NCBI GenBank assembly: GCA_001899285.1
Contig: MKWA01000007.1
Location: forward strand, 76,188-140,187
Source of the DNA: Rhizobiales bacterium 64-17
Lineage (GTDB): Bacteria > Pseudomonadota > Alphaproteobacteria > Rhizobiales > Xanthobacteraceae
Direction of reading: 5' to 3'
DNA length: 64,000 bases
A program made the translations under genes and the position numbers. The notes under the pieces were generated by a model. It saw nothing but the letters and a program-made list of their open reading frames with translations. It had not been told where the DNA came from and did not search any database. Positions 21,984 to 58,137 of this stretch are shown in pieces (positions within the stretch are counted from its first letter, which is position 1; the number at the start of each line of letters is the position of its first letter).

Positions 21984-23231
21984 ATGAAGGCGATTATTGT
22001 CGGTGGCGGCATCGGTGGGTTGACCACCGCGTTGATGCTGCATGCGCGCGGGATCGAATGCGAGATTTTCGAGCAGGCCGATCAGGTCCGCGAGCTTGGC
22101 GTCGGCATCAACACGCTGCCCCATGCGATCAAGGAACTGGCCGACCTCGGCCTGCTGCCGCGGCTCGATGCCGTCGGCATCCGCACCCACGAACTGTTCT
22201 ACACCAACCGCATGGGCCAGGAGATCTGGCGCGAGCCGCGCGGCACCGACGCCGGCTTCGACTATCCGCAGTTCTCGATCCATCGCGGCCGGTTGCAGGC
22301 GGTGATCTATCAGGCGGTGCGCACGCGGCTCGGTGAATCGCGCATCCACACCGGTCACCGGCTCGGCGCGTTCACGCAGGACGAAGCCGGCGTCACCGCG
22401 TATTTCTTCGGCCGCGACGGCTCGCATCGTTTGAGCGTGCGCGGCGACGTGCTGATCGGCGCCGACGGCATCCATTCGGTGGTGCGCGAGACGCTCTATC
22501 CCAATGAAGGCCCGGCGCGCTGGAACGGATCGATGCTGTGGCGCGGCGCGATCGACTGGCCGAAATTTCTCACCGGCCGCTCGATGGTGATCGCCGGCGG
22601 CATGGCCGGCAAGCTTGTCATCTATCCGATCGGCGAGGGCGCGCGCGAGGATCGTCCGCTCACCAACTGGGCGGTGCTGGTGAGAGTCGGCGAGGGCGGT
22701 GCGCCGCCGAAGAAGGAAGACTGGTCGCGGCTCGGACGGTTCGAGGATCTGATGCCGCATGTGCAGCGTTTCAGCATTCCCTATGTGGATGCCAAGGCCT
22801 TGATCGAGGCGACGCCGGAGTTCTGGGAATATCCGATGTGCGACCGCGATCCGCTGCCGCACTGGTCGTATGGCCGCGTCACGCTGCTCGGCGACGCCGC
22901 GCATCCGATGTATCCGGTTGGCTCCAACGGTGCGTCGCAGGCGATCCTCGACGCGCGCTGTCTCGCGGATCGGCTGCGCGACGCCGATCATGTGTTCCAG
23001 GCGCTGTGGGCCTACGAGCAGGAGCGCCTGCCGATGACCGCGCAGATCGTGAAATCGAATCGCGGCGGCGGGCCGGAAGGCGTGATCGACGCGGTCGAGG
23101 AGCGCGCGCCGGACGGCTTCAACAATATCGACGACGTGCTGTCCTACGAAGACCGCAAGGCGATCGTGCGCGGCTACGCGGCCAAGGCCGGCTTCGCCAA
23201 GGAGCAGGTCAACGCGGGCAAGGCGGCCTAA
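21984..23231 (+). CDS. Flavin-dependent monooxygenase, PhzS/UbiH-like
   Basis: A 415-residue class A flavoprotein hydroxylase. It has the Rossmann motif IIVGGGIGGLTTALML at the N-terminus, the GVGINTLPHAIKEL segment typical of PhzS-type 5-methylphenazine-1-carboxylate monooxygenase relatives, DVLIGADGIHSVVR and the second FAD motif LLGDAAHPMYPVGSNGASQAI. It hydroxylates an aromatic or heteroaromatic substrate using NAD(P)H and oxygen, in the cytoplasm. ATG 21984 (MKAIIVGG) is the family-typical start. It is monocistronic and ends convergently, overlapping the aquaporin gene by four bases. No phenazine genes are present, so the substrate is unknown. Confidence 0.88.
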   Translation: MKAIIVGGGIGGLTTALMLHARGIECEIFEQADQVRELGVGINTLPHAIKELADLGLLPRLDAVGIRTHELFYTNRMGQEIWREPRGTDAGFDYPQFSIHRGRLQAVIYQAVRTRLGESRIHTGHRLGAFTQDEAGVTAYFFGRDGSHRLSVRGDVLIGADGIHSVVRETLYPNEGPARWNGSMLWRGAIDWPKFLTGRSMVIAGGMAGKLVIYPIGEGAREDRPLTNWAVLVRVGEGGAPPKKEDWSRLGRFEDLMPHVQRFSIPYVDAKALIEATPEFWEYPMCDRDPLPHWSYGRVTLLGDAAHPMYPVGSNGASQAILDARCLADRLRDADHVFQALWAYEQERLPMTAQIVKSNRGGGPEGVIDAVEERAPDGFNNIDDVLSYEDRKAIVRGYAAKAGFAKEQVNAGKAA

Positions 23232-23911
23232 TCGGCCGCCGGCGGCGCGGACAGTTGCCACAGCCATCGTGCCAGCGCGAGGGCAGCCAGAGCGCCGGCT
23301 AGTTGCGCGACAATGAAAGCCAGCACATTGCCGGGTGCGATGCCCGCAAAGGTATCGGATGCGGCGCGCGCGATAGTCACGGCCGGATTGGCGAACGATG
23401 TCGATGCGGTGAACCAGTAAGCGGCACTGATGTAGAGACCGACCGCCGCGGCTGTCGCTGCCGGCGCACGCACGCAGCAGCCGATGATCGTCAGGATCAG
23501 TCCGAACGTGGCGACGAATTCCGCGACCCATTGCCCCGAGCCGCTGCGCAGTTTGGTCGCCAGCTGCAGCACCGGAAGATCAAACATGATGTGCGCCACC
23601 CAGACGCCGATCAGCGCGCCGGCAATTTGCACCGCAATATAACCACGGGCCGTTTGCCAGCTTATCCGGCCGATGATGGCCTCGGTGAGGGTGACGGCCG
23701 GATTGAAATGCGCACCGGAGATCGGCCCCAGAACCGTGATGAGGACGGTGAGGATCGCGCCGGTTGCGAGCGTGTTGCCGAGCAGCGCCAGCGCGATATT
23801 GCCGTCCGAGAGGCGCTCGCCCATCACGCCTGATCCAATCACGGTCGCGAGCAGCAGGGCTGTGCCCAGCGCTTCGGCCGCAAGCGCGCGCGAGCGGGTG
23901 GCGGAAGTCAC
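23228..23911 (-). CDS. aqpS: MIP family aquaglyceroporin in the arsenic operon (AqpS-like)
   Basis: A 227-residue channel with six hydrophobic helices and two NPA boxes: HFNPAVTL (N70-A72) and SFANPAVTI (N175-A177). The GTG start at 23911 overlaps the arsenate reductase stop in a GTGA motif, which fixes both the start and operon membership. In Sinorhizobium meliloti the arsR-aqpS-arsC operon uses such a channel to let arsenite formed by ArsC leave the cell down its gradient, and the same role fits here because no ArsB or Acr3 pump gene is present. It is the last gene of the operon. Confidence 0.88.
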   Translation of the reverse strand: MTSATRSRALAAEALGTALLLATVIGSGVMGERLSDGNIALALLGNTLATGAILTVLITVLGPISGAHFNPAVTLTEAIIGRISWQTARGYIAVQIAGALIGVWVAHIMFDLPVLQLATKLRSGSGQWVAEFVATFGLILTIIGCCVRAPAATAAAVGLYISAAYWFTASTSFANPAVTIARAASDTFAGIAPGNVLAFIVAQLAGALAALALARWLWQLSAPPAAD

Positions 23912-24432
23912 CCGGCAGCCGCCTTGTCGGTCGTGCCCTCCATGGCGCCGATGCTGTGGAGCTTCTGCTGCAAGCTCATGGCCGACAATTTGTCGAGCGG
24001 AAGCGCCACGAAAATCGAAATGCGCTGCAACAGCCGTCGATAGGCTTCGGCGAAGGCTAGGGCGACCTCCGCGTCGTTGCCCTGCGCGGCGGCGGGGTCG
24101 GGAATGCCCCAATGCGCGGTAGCGGGTTTGCCGGGCCAGACCGGACAGGTCTCGCCGGCGGCGGCGTCGCAGACCGTGATGATGAAATCGAGAGCCGGTG
24201 CATCGGGCTGCGCGAATTCAAGCCACGATTTCGAGCGAAGCGCGGACGTGTCGTAGCCGAGCTTCAGCAACAGCGCATGGGTCTGCGGGTGCGGCGCGCC
24301 CTTCGGCTTGCTCCCGGCGCTATAGGCGCGAAAACGGTCCTTGCCGAGCTTGTTGAGGATCGCTTCTGCGATCATCGACCGGGCCGAATTGCCGGTGCAG
24401 AGGAACAGGACGCGGAGGGGCTGGTCAGCCAC
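23908..24432 (-). CDS. arsC: Arsenate reductase, low-molecular-weight phosphatase type
   Basis: A 174-residue enzyme with the protein-tyrosine-phosphatase P-loop CTGNSARS (C12 to R18) and two further cysteines, C88 and C96, in ITVCDAAAGETCP. This triad is that of thioredoxin-coupled ArsC. It reduces arsenate to arsenite in the cytoplasm. About 30 residues of C-terminal extension go beyond the usual ~140. The start overlaps the end of the ArsR gene by eight bases and its stop overlaps the aquaporin start, so all three proteins are translated as one coupled unit. Confidence 0.92.
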   Translation of the reverse strand: MADQPLRVLFLCTGNSARSMIAEAILNKLGKDRFRAYSAGSKPKGAPHPQTHALLLKLGYDTSALRSKSWLEFAQPDAPALDFIITVCDAAAGETCPVWPGKPATAHWGIPDPAAAQGNDAEVALAFAEAYRRLLQRISIFVALPLDKLSAMSLQQKLHSIGAMEGTTDKAAAG

Positions 24433-24775
24433 AGGTCTTGGCCTTTCTGCTGCGCCGACGGGCGGGGCGGGTGATCTCGCAGATCTCGGGCCGTCCGCCG
24501 CAGCAATCGTCGGTCAGGAAGCCGAGCAGATCCTTCATCGCGTCGAAGCGTGCCGCATAGATCATCGAGCGTCCGTCTCGCTGGACCGTGACCAGCGCGG
24601 CGTGGCGCAGACGGTCGAGATGGAAGGTCAGTGTGTTCGGCGCGAGGCCGAGCCGGTTGGCGATGTCGCCCGCGCTCAGGCCGTCCGGGCCGGACGCCAC
24701 CAACAGACGAAACACCGCGAGGCGATGATTTTGCGCAAGCGCGGCAAGCGCGTTGACAGCATCTATTATTTCCAT
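24425..24775 (-). CDS. arsR: ArsR/SmtB family transcriptional repressor
   Basis: A 116-residue winged-helix repressor. The recognition helix region reads LSAGDIANRLGLAPNTLTFHLDRLRHAALV. The usual ELCVCDL arsenic site is absent; instead C91, C92 and C99 in DDCCGGRPEIC at the C-terminus resemble the C-terminal three-cysteine site of the Acidithiobacillus-type ArsR, which makes arsenite the likely inducer. It represses its own operon, and a dyad overlapping its start codon is the probable operator. The C-terminal tail is basic. Confidence 0.9.
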   Translation of the reverse strand: MEIIDAVNALAALAQNHRLAVFRLLVASGPDGLSAGDIANRLGLAPNTLTFHLDRLRHAALVTVQRDGRSMIYAARFDAMKDLLGFLTDDCCGGRPEICEITRPARRRSRKAKTCG

Positions 24776-24811
24776 AGTTCAACGAATATAGAAGTATGGT
24801 CTTGCCGTCAA
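24772..24811 (-). promoter_or_regulatory. arsR promoter and ArsR operator, near-leaderless start
   Basis: On the minus strand a TTGACG -35 (24811-24806) and a TATATT -10 (24790-24785) are separated by 15 bases. A near-perfect inverted repeat, CCATAGTTC at 24772-24780 against GAAGTATGG at 24791-24799, spans the -10 box and the ATG at 24775. No ribosome binding site precedes the ATG and the expected start of transcription is within a few bases of it, so the mRNA may be leaderless. The dyad is the natural ArsR operator candidate. Confidence 0.6.
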
Positions 24812-24839
24812 TCGGCGGGTTTGGGGCCGGCCGAGGGGT

Positions 24840-24865
24840 TTGACTTTTTCCCATATGCCTATAAT
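24840..24865 (+). promoter_or_regulatory. Candidate sigma-70 promoter facing the hairpin-dense element
   Basis: TTGACT at 24840-24845 and a perfect TATAAT at 24860-24865 point to the right into a 0.6 kb stretch with no credible protein gene. The 14-base spacer is shorter than the usual 16-18, which lowers confidence, but both boxes are rare by chance in such GC-rich DNA. Confidence 0.4.
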
Positions 24866-24871
24866 CCTATT

Positions 24872-25404
24872 CTTGTCCTGCTCGTCGAGGGGCGTCATCA
24901 TGAGGCGTCTTGATGGTGGAGCAGGAATTGCGGCGCCCGCGCGCAGGTCTCGCACCCTGCGTCCGGGACGCCCTGGGTTTGCCGTCCGCCCCAACTAAGT
25001 GGGGCCGCCTGCAAGGGCTGGACGGGGTAGGACGAACGCGGGCCAAAGCCCGCGGGAACCGATGGGGTCCGATCCCGCAAGGATCGACAACTCCATCTGT
25101 CCGCGCCCCGGAAGCACGGTCCCGGGGAGCGAAATCGCCGCCCATGACAAGCCCAGCCGGCGCAAGCTTGGCTGGGTGGAGCGCCGCAAGGCGCGCGTGT
25201 CTCTCTCTGGCGGGAGAGATGCGCTCCGTTCACGCGGTGACGCGTGAGCGGTGGCTAAGACGTTGCGCTTCGCGGCGCTCCGTCCCCCTCGATCGGTTGT
25301 CGAGGGACGAAACAGAACTCCGGCGTCCCCGCGCCGCAAACAACAGGGGCGCATCCGCATGCCTGCATGCGGGCCAGAAAAGATGACGGCGGCTCTGTGT
25401 CATC
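24872..25404 (+). other. Hairpin-dense gene-free element; candidate structured RNA or dispersed repeat
   Basis: No frame here codes for a plausible protein: those open on both strands are low-complexity and Arg-rich. Instead at least eight inverted repeats follow one another: 25037-25054, 25070-25086, 25106-25127, 25152-25176, 25181-25194, 25230-25247, 25355-25372 and 25382-25404. Stems are 5-8 base pairs; two loops are GCAA and GTGA, both GNRA-type tetraloops. A promoter-like sequence lies just upstream at 24840. This could be a non-coding RNA gene or a member of an intergenic repeat family of the Bradyrhizobiaceae; I cannot decide without a search. The strand given follows the promoter. Confidence 0.45.
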
Positions 25405-25411
25405 GGCTGTT
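25382..25411 (-). terminator. Possible terminator downstream of ndvA
   Basis: Read on the minus strand, GATGAC and GTCATC (25404-25399 and 25387-25382) form a six-base-pair stem followed by TTTT. It lies ~50 bases past the ndvA stop. The stem is short and also forms the last hairpin of the structured element, so the assignment is tentative. Confidence 0.35.
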
Positions 25412-25452
25412 TGACAATGACATCGGGCGAGAAAGTGAGCTTTCACCCCACT

Positions 25453-27222
25453 TCATCCGGAGGACGCTCCGCTGCCCGTCATGAACTGCGCCTTGGCCAG
25501 TTCCGCGAACAAGCCGCCCTGCGCCACCAGTTCGTCGAACGTGCCGCGCTCGACGATCCGGCCCTGATCGAACACCAGGATGCAGGTGGCGTCGCGCACG
25601 GTGGCGAGGCGGTGCGCGATGACGAAACTGGTGCGGCCCTTCATCACCTCGTCGAGCGCGGCGTTGACCTTGGTCTCGGTCGCGGCGTCGAGCGCGCTGG
25701 TCGCCTCGTCGAGGATCAGGATCGGCGGATCTTTCAACAAAGCGCGCGCAATCGACAGCCGCTGCCGCTCGCCGCCGGACAGCGCGCGGCCGCGCTCGCC
25801 GACATTGGCGTTGAGGCCGCCCGCGTGCCGCTCGATGAAGTCCAGCGCCTGCGCGCGGCGGCACGCCTCGCGGATCTGTTCGTCGGTGGCGTCGGGATTG
25901 CCGACCCGCAGGTTCTCCGCGATCGAGCGGTTGAACAGCAGCGGCTCCTGGAACACCACGCCGATCTTGCGGCGCAGGCTGGCGAGCGTGATGTCGCGGA
26001 TGTCGGTGCCGTCGATGGTGACGCGGCCGGATTGCGGATCGTAGACGCGATGCAGGATGGCTAGCGCCGTCGATTTGCCGGCGCCGGTGCCGCCGACCAG
26101 CGCGATGGTATCGCCGGGCTTGGCGGTGAACGACAGATCCTCGACCGCGGGCTTGGCGCCGTCATAACCAAAGGTGACGTGCTCGAACGCCACGTCGCCG
26201 CGCACATGATCGAGCGCCATCGCGCCCTTGCGCTCGACGACGCCGGAAGTGGCGTCGAGCACCGCGAAGAATTCCGTCAACCGTGGCCCATCCATGAAGA
26301 TGCGGTTGACGAAGCCGGCCATCTGTTCGAGCCGCTGGATCAGCATGCCGGCGAAGCTCATGAACATCACGATTTCGCCGATCGTCGTTTGCCCGCGCGC
26401 GAACAGCCACAGGCCGAGCAGCAGGATCGCGAGCATGGTCAGCGTGGTCGAAGCGCGGGTCAGCGTGCCGACCAGCGCCCACCACGACAGCACCGGCATC
26501 TGCGCGCCGAGCAGCCGGTCGATCACGCTGCGCAGCCCCAGCACCTCGACCTCGACGCGGGTGAAACTCTGCACCAGCGCGACATTGCCGAGCGTGTCGG
26601 AGGCGCGTTCGGCAAGATCGGAATAGTAGCGCTCCACCGCGCTCTGCAGCGTCTCGGTCTTGCGCAGCACCAGGGTCGTCAGGACGACGAAGACGAGGCA
26701 CAGCGCGAACAGCAGCAAAGCCAGCCGCCAGTTCATGTACAGCGCCATCGGCAGCAGGATCACGGTTGCTGCGAAAGCGGCGAGATGCTCGCGGAAGAAG
26801 CCGAGCCACAGCGCCCACAGCGTGTCGGTGCCGGCGAGCATCACTTTCATCAGCCGCCCGGAATGTGTGGCGCTGTGAAAGCTCAACGGCAACTGGATCA
26901 CATGCTCGAAATAGTTGCTGAGCACCGCGTGTCGGCGGCTATGCGCGAGCCGGTCGGCATAGAGCGACACGAGCGCGCCGCAGACGATCGTGAACAGGCC
27001 GAAGCCGACCCACGCTGCAACCAAGGGGAGCAGCACCGGCAGCCAGACGTCGCTCTCGCCGGCTTTCGCGCCGGCCAGCGCGTCGATGATTCGACCGAAC
27101 AGCACCGGTTCGGCGAATTGCGCGAGCGCGAGCGCGACATTGGCCGCGGCCAGAATCCAGCCGAGCAGGGCCTGTTCGCCGAGCAGACCGAGCACGCGAG
27201 CGTAAAGGTGAAGCATTTTCAT
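25453..27222 (-). CDS. ndvA: Cyclic beta-1,2-glucan exporter, ABC transporter with fused membrane and ATPase domains
   Basis: A 589-residue half-transporter: six transmembrane helices over residues 1-310, then an ATPase domain with Walker [10 protein letters not shown], signature [16 protein letters not shown], Walker [13 protein letters not shown] and the switch histidine in IAHR. The N-terminal part, with [33 protein letters not shown] and [11 protein letters not shown], is specific to NdvA/ChvA. It exports cyclic beta-1,2-glucan to the periplasm for osmotic adaptation and host interaction in Rhizobiales. The synthase gene ndvB is not nearby. The gene is monocistronic, divergent from the LysR regulator. 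Confidence 0.92.
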
Positions 27223-49043: not shown

Positions 49044-49128
49044 TGGTGCCCCTGGCCGGACTCGAACCAGCACGTATTGCTACACCTGATTTTGAGTCAG
49101 GCGCGTCTACCAATTCCGCCACAGGGGC
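49044..49128 (-). tRNA. tRNA-Leu (CAA)
   Basis: The minus strand folds as an 85-base class II tRNA with encoded CCA: the 5' GCCCCTG pairs with 3' CAGGGGC, the D-arm starts GGCGGAATTGGTAGAC, the anticodon stem CCTGA/TCAGG holds the loop CTCAAAA (anticodon CAA, reading UUG), then a leucine-type long variable arm and the T-arm GGTTCGAGTCC. It lies between ppc and dsbB. Confidence 0.96.
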
Positions 49129-57953: not shown

Positions 57954-57992
57954 GTCCAAGATCGGACTTGATGTCCGGAGCCTTGCGTCCTC

Positions 57993-58048
57993 GGCCTTTT
58001 AGCGACTTATTTAACGTGGCTGCAAGCCGGCCGGCTCAAAGGACCACG
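57993..58048 (-). promoter_or_regulatory. SAM-II riboswitch upstream of metZ
   Basis: The minus strand carries CGTGG (58048-58044) pairing with CCACG (58019-58015) as P1, followed by TTAAATAAGTCGCTAAAAGG, the conserved 3' strand of the SAM-II (SAM_alpha) aptamer. Loop bases GAGCCGG before the GCTTGCAG segment can pair with GGCC after CTAAAA to form the pseudoknot. SAM-II is known from alphaproteobacterial metA/metX/metZ leaders. Predicted effect: shut-off of metZ when S-adenosylmethionine is abundant. Confidence 0.88.
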
Positions 58049-58137
58049 GGATAAGCCCGCTCTTACGCCTCGTCTCCCTTTCCGTCAAGGCGCCCTTCGG
58101 GTTAGATCGGCCCTGGTTTCCATCGTTTTTGATCGTG

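Follow-up and report, generated by a model that had tools for sequence, protein, structure and literature searches.

The interval that begins at position 24840 of this stretch raises the question of whether it encodes a structured RNA or is a copy of a dispersed repeat. A sequence-only reading of the window (the whole 64,000-nucleotide stretch of DNA analyzed here) put these forward as alternatives, and the two appear to be largely right together. The candidate structured RNA, which is absent from Rfam, is borne out by strand-specific covariation and a promoter. The dispersed intergenic repeat was found as well, but its host probably belongs to the Pseudolabrys group of the Xanthobacteraceae and not to the Bradyrhizobiaceae, as had been proposed.

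The interval represents a single copy of a dispersed repeat, whose features in the window are collected in Table 1. We aligned 13 copies from its own genome, of which 12 are near-complete and one lacks the 3′ part. On the left, similarity ends immediately before TTGAC, even among copies that are more than 90% identical, and the right limit was taken from the tail common to the copies. The unit has a size of 500–600 bases with ordered domains, and entire hairpin modules were gained or lost among the 13 copies. When the region was used as a BLAST query, 30 matching pieces were found in the same genome, one of which comes from the flanking regulator gene and not from the unit. About 10 of these pieces are located at contig ends, as expected from assembly breaks at repeats. 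A covariance model of the first 136 positions of the 5′ domain, designated R1, gave 16 matches in this genome, of which two overlap within the same copy. Its sole match in the window (24874–25011, 113 bits) is to a sequence that is among the model's own sequences. On the minus strand at 23228–24775, an ArsR-type regulator, a low-molecular-weight phosphatase family protein (probably arsenate-reductase-like), and a MIP channel lie in a row and read away from the repeat; 65 bases separate the start of the regulator frame from the repeat's left edge.

Table 1. Coordinates of the repeat unit and its parts in the window.
Feature	Position	Strand	Basis
Whole repeat unit	24840–25433	+	Alignment of 13 own-genome copies; right edge less certain than the sharp left one
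Putative promoter (TTGACT 24840–24845, TATAAT 24860–24865)	24840–24867	+	Family-consensus −10 position about 24862–24867
Conserved 5′ RNA domain (model R1), four helices	24874–25013	+	Covariation alignment
Helix 1 (24874–24883 with 24919–24930) enclosing helix 2 (24892–24896 with 24904–24908)	24874–24930	+	Covariation
Hairpin (helix 4) with conserved ACTA-like loop	24988–25005	+	5 of 5 counted pairs covary
Middle-region hairpin (GCGGGCC...GCCCGC type)	25037–25054	+	Perfect hairpin, kept in own-genome copies
11-bp helix (25176–25186 with 25273–25283) closing variable modules	25176–25283	+	Copy count
CCCTCGA...TCGAGGG hairpin, variable sequence	25286–25306	+	Perfect-hairpin scan
Hairpin 25321–25336, loop CCCC (25327–25330) able to pair with GGGG (25346–25349): predicted pseudoknot	25320–25349	+	Alignment A2
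Tail GGCTGTTTGACAAT...	25405–25426	+	Exact-site search; specific to the repeat in its own genome

The run of 5–8-bp hairpins from which the sequence-only reading started is well outside chance. Between 24873 and 25372, we counted 10 perfect non-overlapping hairpins of at least 5 bp, compared with 4.0 ± 1.7 in dinucleotide shuffles (0 of 200 shuffles reached 10), and 8 of at least 6 bp, compared with 1.2. The RNA folding z was −7.0 on the plus strand and −5.0 on the minus strand, and the plus-strand folding energy was below those of all 125 other 500-base pieces of the window. Some of the individual hairpins that had been stressed fall in variable modules. The GTGA loop (25237–25240) is formed in the minimum-energy fold, but it belongs to one of the variable modules inside the 11-bp helix; 7 of the 13 own-genome copies have this module, and the rest differ there. 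GCAA (25186–25189) is the loop of a local hairpin, but three of its four bases are paired in the minimum-energy fold, and the local hairpin competes with the conserved 11-bp helix. A hairpin does exist at 25355–25372, with seven pairs and a four-base loop in the minimum-energy fold instead of the eight pairs described, and it sits in a variable tail.

Because an alignment of 92 near-full-length copies mixed subfamilies and gave a weak whole-length consensus, we used alignments of single domains. Filtering the 92 copies by length, N content, and identity left 85, of which 83 were aligned over the 5′ domain (L005 and L019 were left out). The consensus of the first ~140 nt contains 33 pairs, 20 of which show double compensatory changes; both sides changed in 8 of the 10 pairs of helix 1 and in 1 of the 5 pairs of helix 2. 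The proportion of paired cells was 96.7%, compared with 81.4% in shuffled and 37–55% in slid alignments. The covariation score was 0.553, compared with 0.266 (shuffled) and 0.08–0.16 (slid), and exceeded all 500 shuffles and all slid controls. The observed number of 20 pairs changed on both sides was reached by 2 of 500 shuffles. A search for covarying pairs among homologues had been proposed as a check on the structured RNA, and such pairs are present.

An exact TTGAC was found within 60 nt upstream of the 5′ domain in 61 of the 83 copies, and there is little conservation farther upstream. Alignment of 60 rows on TTGAC gave the family promoter consensus TTGACN-N17-TATNCT, in which TATNCT is the weaker part, and helix 1 begins five or six bases after the −10 element. 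We designate this element a putative sigma-70 type promoter inside the unit, at its left edge. TTGACT and TATAAT had been described as lying just upstream of the hairpins; both are present, but inside the repeat, and they are 14 nt apart in the window copy, whereas the family consensus has a spacing of 17.

The central region is closed by the 11-bp helix, the second arm of which was not found in 4 of the 92 copies. All 11 positions are paired in 80 of the 88 copies that have it; at one position, 57 of the 88 have A-T and 23 have C-G. The first arm was taken as the best match within 260 nt, which biases the count upward; a control that shuffles single bases, in which the best match in the upstream sequence never exceeded 10, answers this in part. 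The distance between the starts of the two arms ranges from 63 to 210 bases (median, 81), and the enclosed modules vary between copies.

For the 3′ end, an anchor motif was found in 74 of 105 ends, 54 of which were aligned (alignment A2). Pair 77–96 of this alignment, in the putative pseudoknot, is G-C in 27 copies, C-G in 26, and unpaired in 1. Two of the three remaining pseudoknot pairs are invariant, and the third changes on a single side. Pair 71/72–79, in the hairpin underneath, is G-C in 34, C-G in 14, and T-G in 6 of the 54 copies. The paired cells and the covariation of A2 exceeded all 500 shuffles, and two of the five measures, both-side changes (reached by 49 of 500) and further pair types (498 of 500), were not above them. 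In Rhodoplanes copies, which have no anchor motif and are outside this count, CCGGG can be seen by eye opposite CCCGG. A pseudoknot near the 3′ end is indicated as a prediction that rests on one strongly compensated pair. The tail has 11 exact sites in its own genome, every one at a unit copy (the eleventh is L178), and its GGCTGTTTGAMAAT part occurs within 75 nt in 25 of the 74 ends, where about 0.0025 per end is expected by chance. GGCTGTTTGAMAAT presumably resembles the rRNA antitermination boxA, an idea that we dropped. A search with the 16S rRNA model (RF00177) gave no match in the own genome and three others (G000, G004, G011, and G018), which left no rRNA leader for a comparison with the tail, and it matched 9 of 14 control genomes.

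R1 matches were found in 35 of 40 genomes of the same genus, own genome included, with 0–26 matches each. The 5 genomes with no match, three of which are at least 90% complete, suggest that the unit is dispensable. By BLAST, unit matches were present in 32 of 60 genomes, own genome included. Across the order, under stricter filters, R1 matched 11 of 199 genomes and 9 of 100 genera, own genome included, with a weakest E value of 7.6e-5, and gave no match in 6 genomes of the same family but other genera. The 5′ domain is recognizable across seven coded families of the order (weakest hits, E 1e-5 to 1e-4), and several genomes of other families have one or two copies each. A pattern scan of named genomes yielded at least 115 stretches, and those listed include Pseudolabrys, Rhodoplanes, Pseudorhodoplanes, Afipia, Tardiphaga, Enterovirga, Methylobrevis, Methyloceanibacter, Rhizobium sp. 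Q54, and other Hyphomicrobiales. One record labelled Gemmatimonadetes (L167) also matched the pattern, yet the profile finds no unit in it. Beyond the genus and the named records, it is the 5′ domain alone that the model establishes. Plasmid and phage collections gave no match by blastn, and viral contigs gave 0 matches to one exact pattern.

The mean similarity of genome-labelled copies is 0.81 within a genome (172 pairs) and 0.57 between genomes (1719 pairs). At four sites (pssA, MAKIEN, sulfite, and MEMPN), the copies of two species are mutually nearest, a pattern that agrees with vertical inheritance and possibly with a host role at these sites. Same-site copies are not mutually nearest at hppA, gcdh, argG, and acs. 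In six genomes (L037, L040, L053, L088, L125, and L138), the unit at the gcdh site lies just upstream of an acyl-CoA dehydrogenase-like gene (assigned by recognition). Because these six units are not each other's nearest relatives, we read the site as one of possible repeated insertion or copy exchange. In G001, a unit is located between two copies of a second dispersed repeat, designated R. At the orthologous site of its close relative G000, the profile finds no unit, the flanks are 92 and 98% identical, and the R sequence comprises one complete set of boxes plus half a set. This difference fits either an insertion in G001 or a loss in G000 through recombination between R repeats. In a comparison of the window site with G001, the sequence agrees at 95% on the ABC-transporter side, the neighbor on the opposite side is a different one, and the unit is absent beside the transporter gene; neither this comparison nor that of the argB side presents a clean empty site.

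The palindromic R repeat (CCTCATCCTGAGGAG ... GGCGTCTCGAA / TTCGAGACG ... CTCCTCACCATGAGG) often adjoins the unit on one or both sides. It was seen at about 1310–1480 and 2080–2270 of L010 and flanking several G000 copies. No target-site duplication was obvious by eye in the flanks of 12 copies, with one unit-less site compared, and neither a protein partner nor a transposase nor a terminal inverted repeat was found for the unit.

The locus probably encodes a long, ornate noncoding RNA absent from Rfam 15, the gene for which would sit on a promoter-bearing, dispensable, and largely self-serving dispersed unit of about 0.5–0.6 kb. From the sigma-70 type promoter at the left edge, transcription would begin at helix 1 or a few bases ahead of it. 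The product, presumably made in cells, would fold into the 5′ domain of four helices, followed by a central region closed by the 11-bp helix, in which interior modules come and go, and then by a 3′ hairpin with a pseudoknot and, in part of the copies, a short tail. It appears to act in trans, most likely by binding a protein of the host or of a mobile element, and through that protein it may serve the spread of the unit itself. Recombination between adjoining palindromic R repeats may aid the gain and loss of units. What is copied is probably the whole DNA unit including the promoter. Because similarity between copies sets in right at the −35 box, we favor whole-unit copying over retroposition of the unit's own transcript. 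SINE-like retroposition of this kind is disfavored, the unit edge lying upstream of the expected start site.

A possible but rather doubtful alternative is a multi-copy regulatory or housekeeping RNA of the host, whose copies act in trans for the cell and are kept for dosage. 6S and CsrB RNA, for example, sequester a protein. The unit's own promoter, the strong constraint on its RNA, the copies that are nearest to a same-site copy of another species, and the low copy numbers in other families would suit such a role, but the 5 of 40 genus genomes without a match, the range of copy number, and the fact that unit sites differ between near relatives argue against it. It is likewise conceivable, though we think it unlikely, that the unit is a mobile element with RNA as its sole product, in which a protein-less element with its own promoter and a 3′-pseudoknot RNA would be mobilized in trans by an RNA-recognizing protein. 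Its logic would be like that of omega-RNA systems, but with no nuclease gene of its own.

The neighborhood of the copies bears on a further reading, a cis-acting, riboswitch-like leader of downstream genes, to which we give a small probability. For this purpose, 109 rows were retained from 174 profile hits after weaker, shorter, and ten duplicate rows were dropped. Some copies do have a gene of the same orientation no more than about 160 nt away (argB-, argG-, and mnmG-like genes in G000, named by their N-termini), and in two genomes of another family (L185 and L186) a lepA-like gene, also named by N-terminus recognition, follows downstream of the RNA on the same strand. However, the downstream gene is on the same strand in 53 rows, on the opposite strand in 47, and not called in 9 (one place enters the count twice, as L052 and L149). 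This even orientation led us to reject a leader as a general rule. Moreover, the downstream genes listed are diverse, and the gene next to the window copy on its downstream side, an ABC transporter gene, is convergent with it.

A DNA-level palindromic repeat (BIME/MITE-like), the hairpins of which would act as DNA without an RNA role, is very improbable, although the unit is dispersed, intergenic in the copies examined, and found beside other palindromic repeats. Over the 33 consensus pairs of the 5′ domain, G-U was counted 443 times and A-C 27 times, where column independence predicts 542 and 148. Per pair, G-U is in excess in 27, A-C in 2, and the two are equal in 4. These counts come from related copies, so that the events are not independent, and the count does not include control repeats of DNA-level role. 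A DNA palindrome would be indifferent to this distinction and an RNA from the other strand would reverse it; therefore, the alignment indicates that selection acts on a plus-strand RNA. The direction of the promoter consensus agrees with this strand, the loops are conserved, a pseudoknot is indicated, and no inverted pair of at least 12 nt joins the two unit edges. The unit is more than a set of DNA hairpins.

The remains of a protein gene, or a gene for a small protein, can practically be dismissed: the window has a 158-codon open frame (24910–25386, plus strand), so that the earlier statement that no protein-like frame exists is right in essence though not to the letter, but its open frames match no family in Pfam or NCBIfam, the outcome of the protein-gene check proposed with that statement; its counterpart is shorter in each of the 12 other copies (37 to 152 codons, more than 90 in 10); and whole hairpin modules are inserted or lost. 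Stop-free stretches of 120–190 codons occur in some frame in all 13 copies, so that length alone cannot exclude coding. A called gene overlaps the unit in 1 of the 109 rows (L118, with a simple codon-usage caller).

For the preferred reading, a structured RNA on a self-serving repeat, up to 26 matches per genome, a promoter inside the unit, and a 5′ domain in seven families provide natural replicates for finding the partner and function of the RNA. Large structured bacterial RNAs with no protein product are few, and the majority of them occur as single copies or are linked to one protein. The unit also prompts one to ask whether a repeat in bacteria can owe its spread to the RNA that it encodes.

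Comparison with known families began with Rfam 15 (4227 families). At gathering thresholds, the whole window gave only a SAM_alpha (SAM-II) riboswitch (57979–58057, minus strand, 77 bits) and a tRNA-Leu (CAA) gene (49044–49128, minus strand), both elsewhere. On 24600–25600, the best sub-threshold scores were 17.9 and 15.5 bits against gathering values of 125.8 and 380, and nothing relevant to the unit appeared at E values up to 5. This Rfam scan, which the sequence-only reading had also proposed, is consistent with a structured RNA that is not in Rfam. HEARO and IscB omega RNA are structured RNAs with many chromosomal copies, and an IscB-type nuclease gene stands beside some of them. The unit is also structured and multi-copy, but it has no Rfam match, although the library includes a HEARO model, and its promoter lies inside the unit; no nuclease gene was recognized by eye among the downstream neighbors listed for its copies.

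REP and BIME sequences are short palindromic units of 20–40 nt, a class that we rejected for a unit of 500–600 bases with ordered domains. In the part of PMC5082802 that describes them, Br-REP1 and Br-REP2 of Bradyrhizobium, a related group, are transcribed intergenic repeats with stem-loops and printed consensus sequences of 20 and about 40 nt. They are set apart from the unit by the printed consensus, and the larger element may be a relative. PMC2864571 lists a Rhizobiales-1 motif with no Rfam number. Among the results listed in searches of openly accessible journal papers, no description of the family was found. A survey of noncoding RNAs in 50 genomes (PMC11109978) reports, in its main text, 'mobile/repeat sequence candidates' that often occur with transposases, integrases, nucleases, or helicases. 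The same text makes no mention of Rhizobiales or Alphaproteobacteria. These candidates resemble the unit in having several copies per genome and an inconsistent orientation to genes, but no transposase, integrase, nuclease, or helicase was recognized beside the unit.

The absence of an Rfam match and the many copies per chromosome distinguish the unit from the OLE, ROOL, and GOLLD RNAs, as does its occurrence, which is confirmed here in Hyphomicrobiales only (the Gemmatimonadetes pattern hit being unconfirmed by the profile). Those RNAs have many helices, no protein product, and mostly unclear functions. The unit shares with these large ornate noncoding RNAs (PMC12286853) the character of a large structured bacterial RNA, and its conserved structure is supported by covariation.
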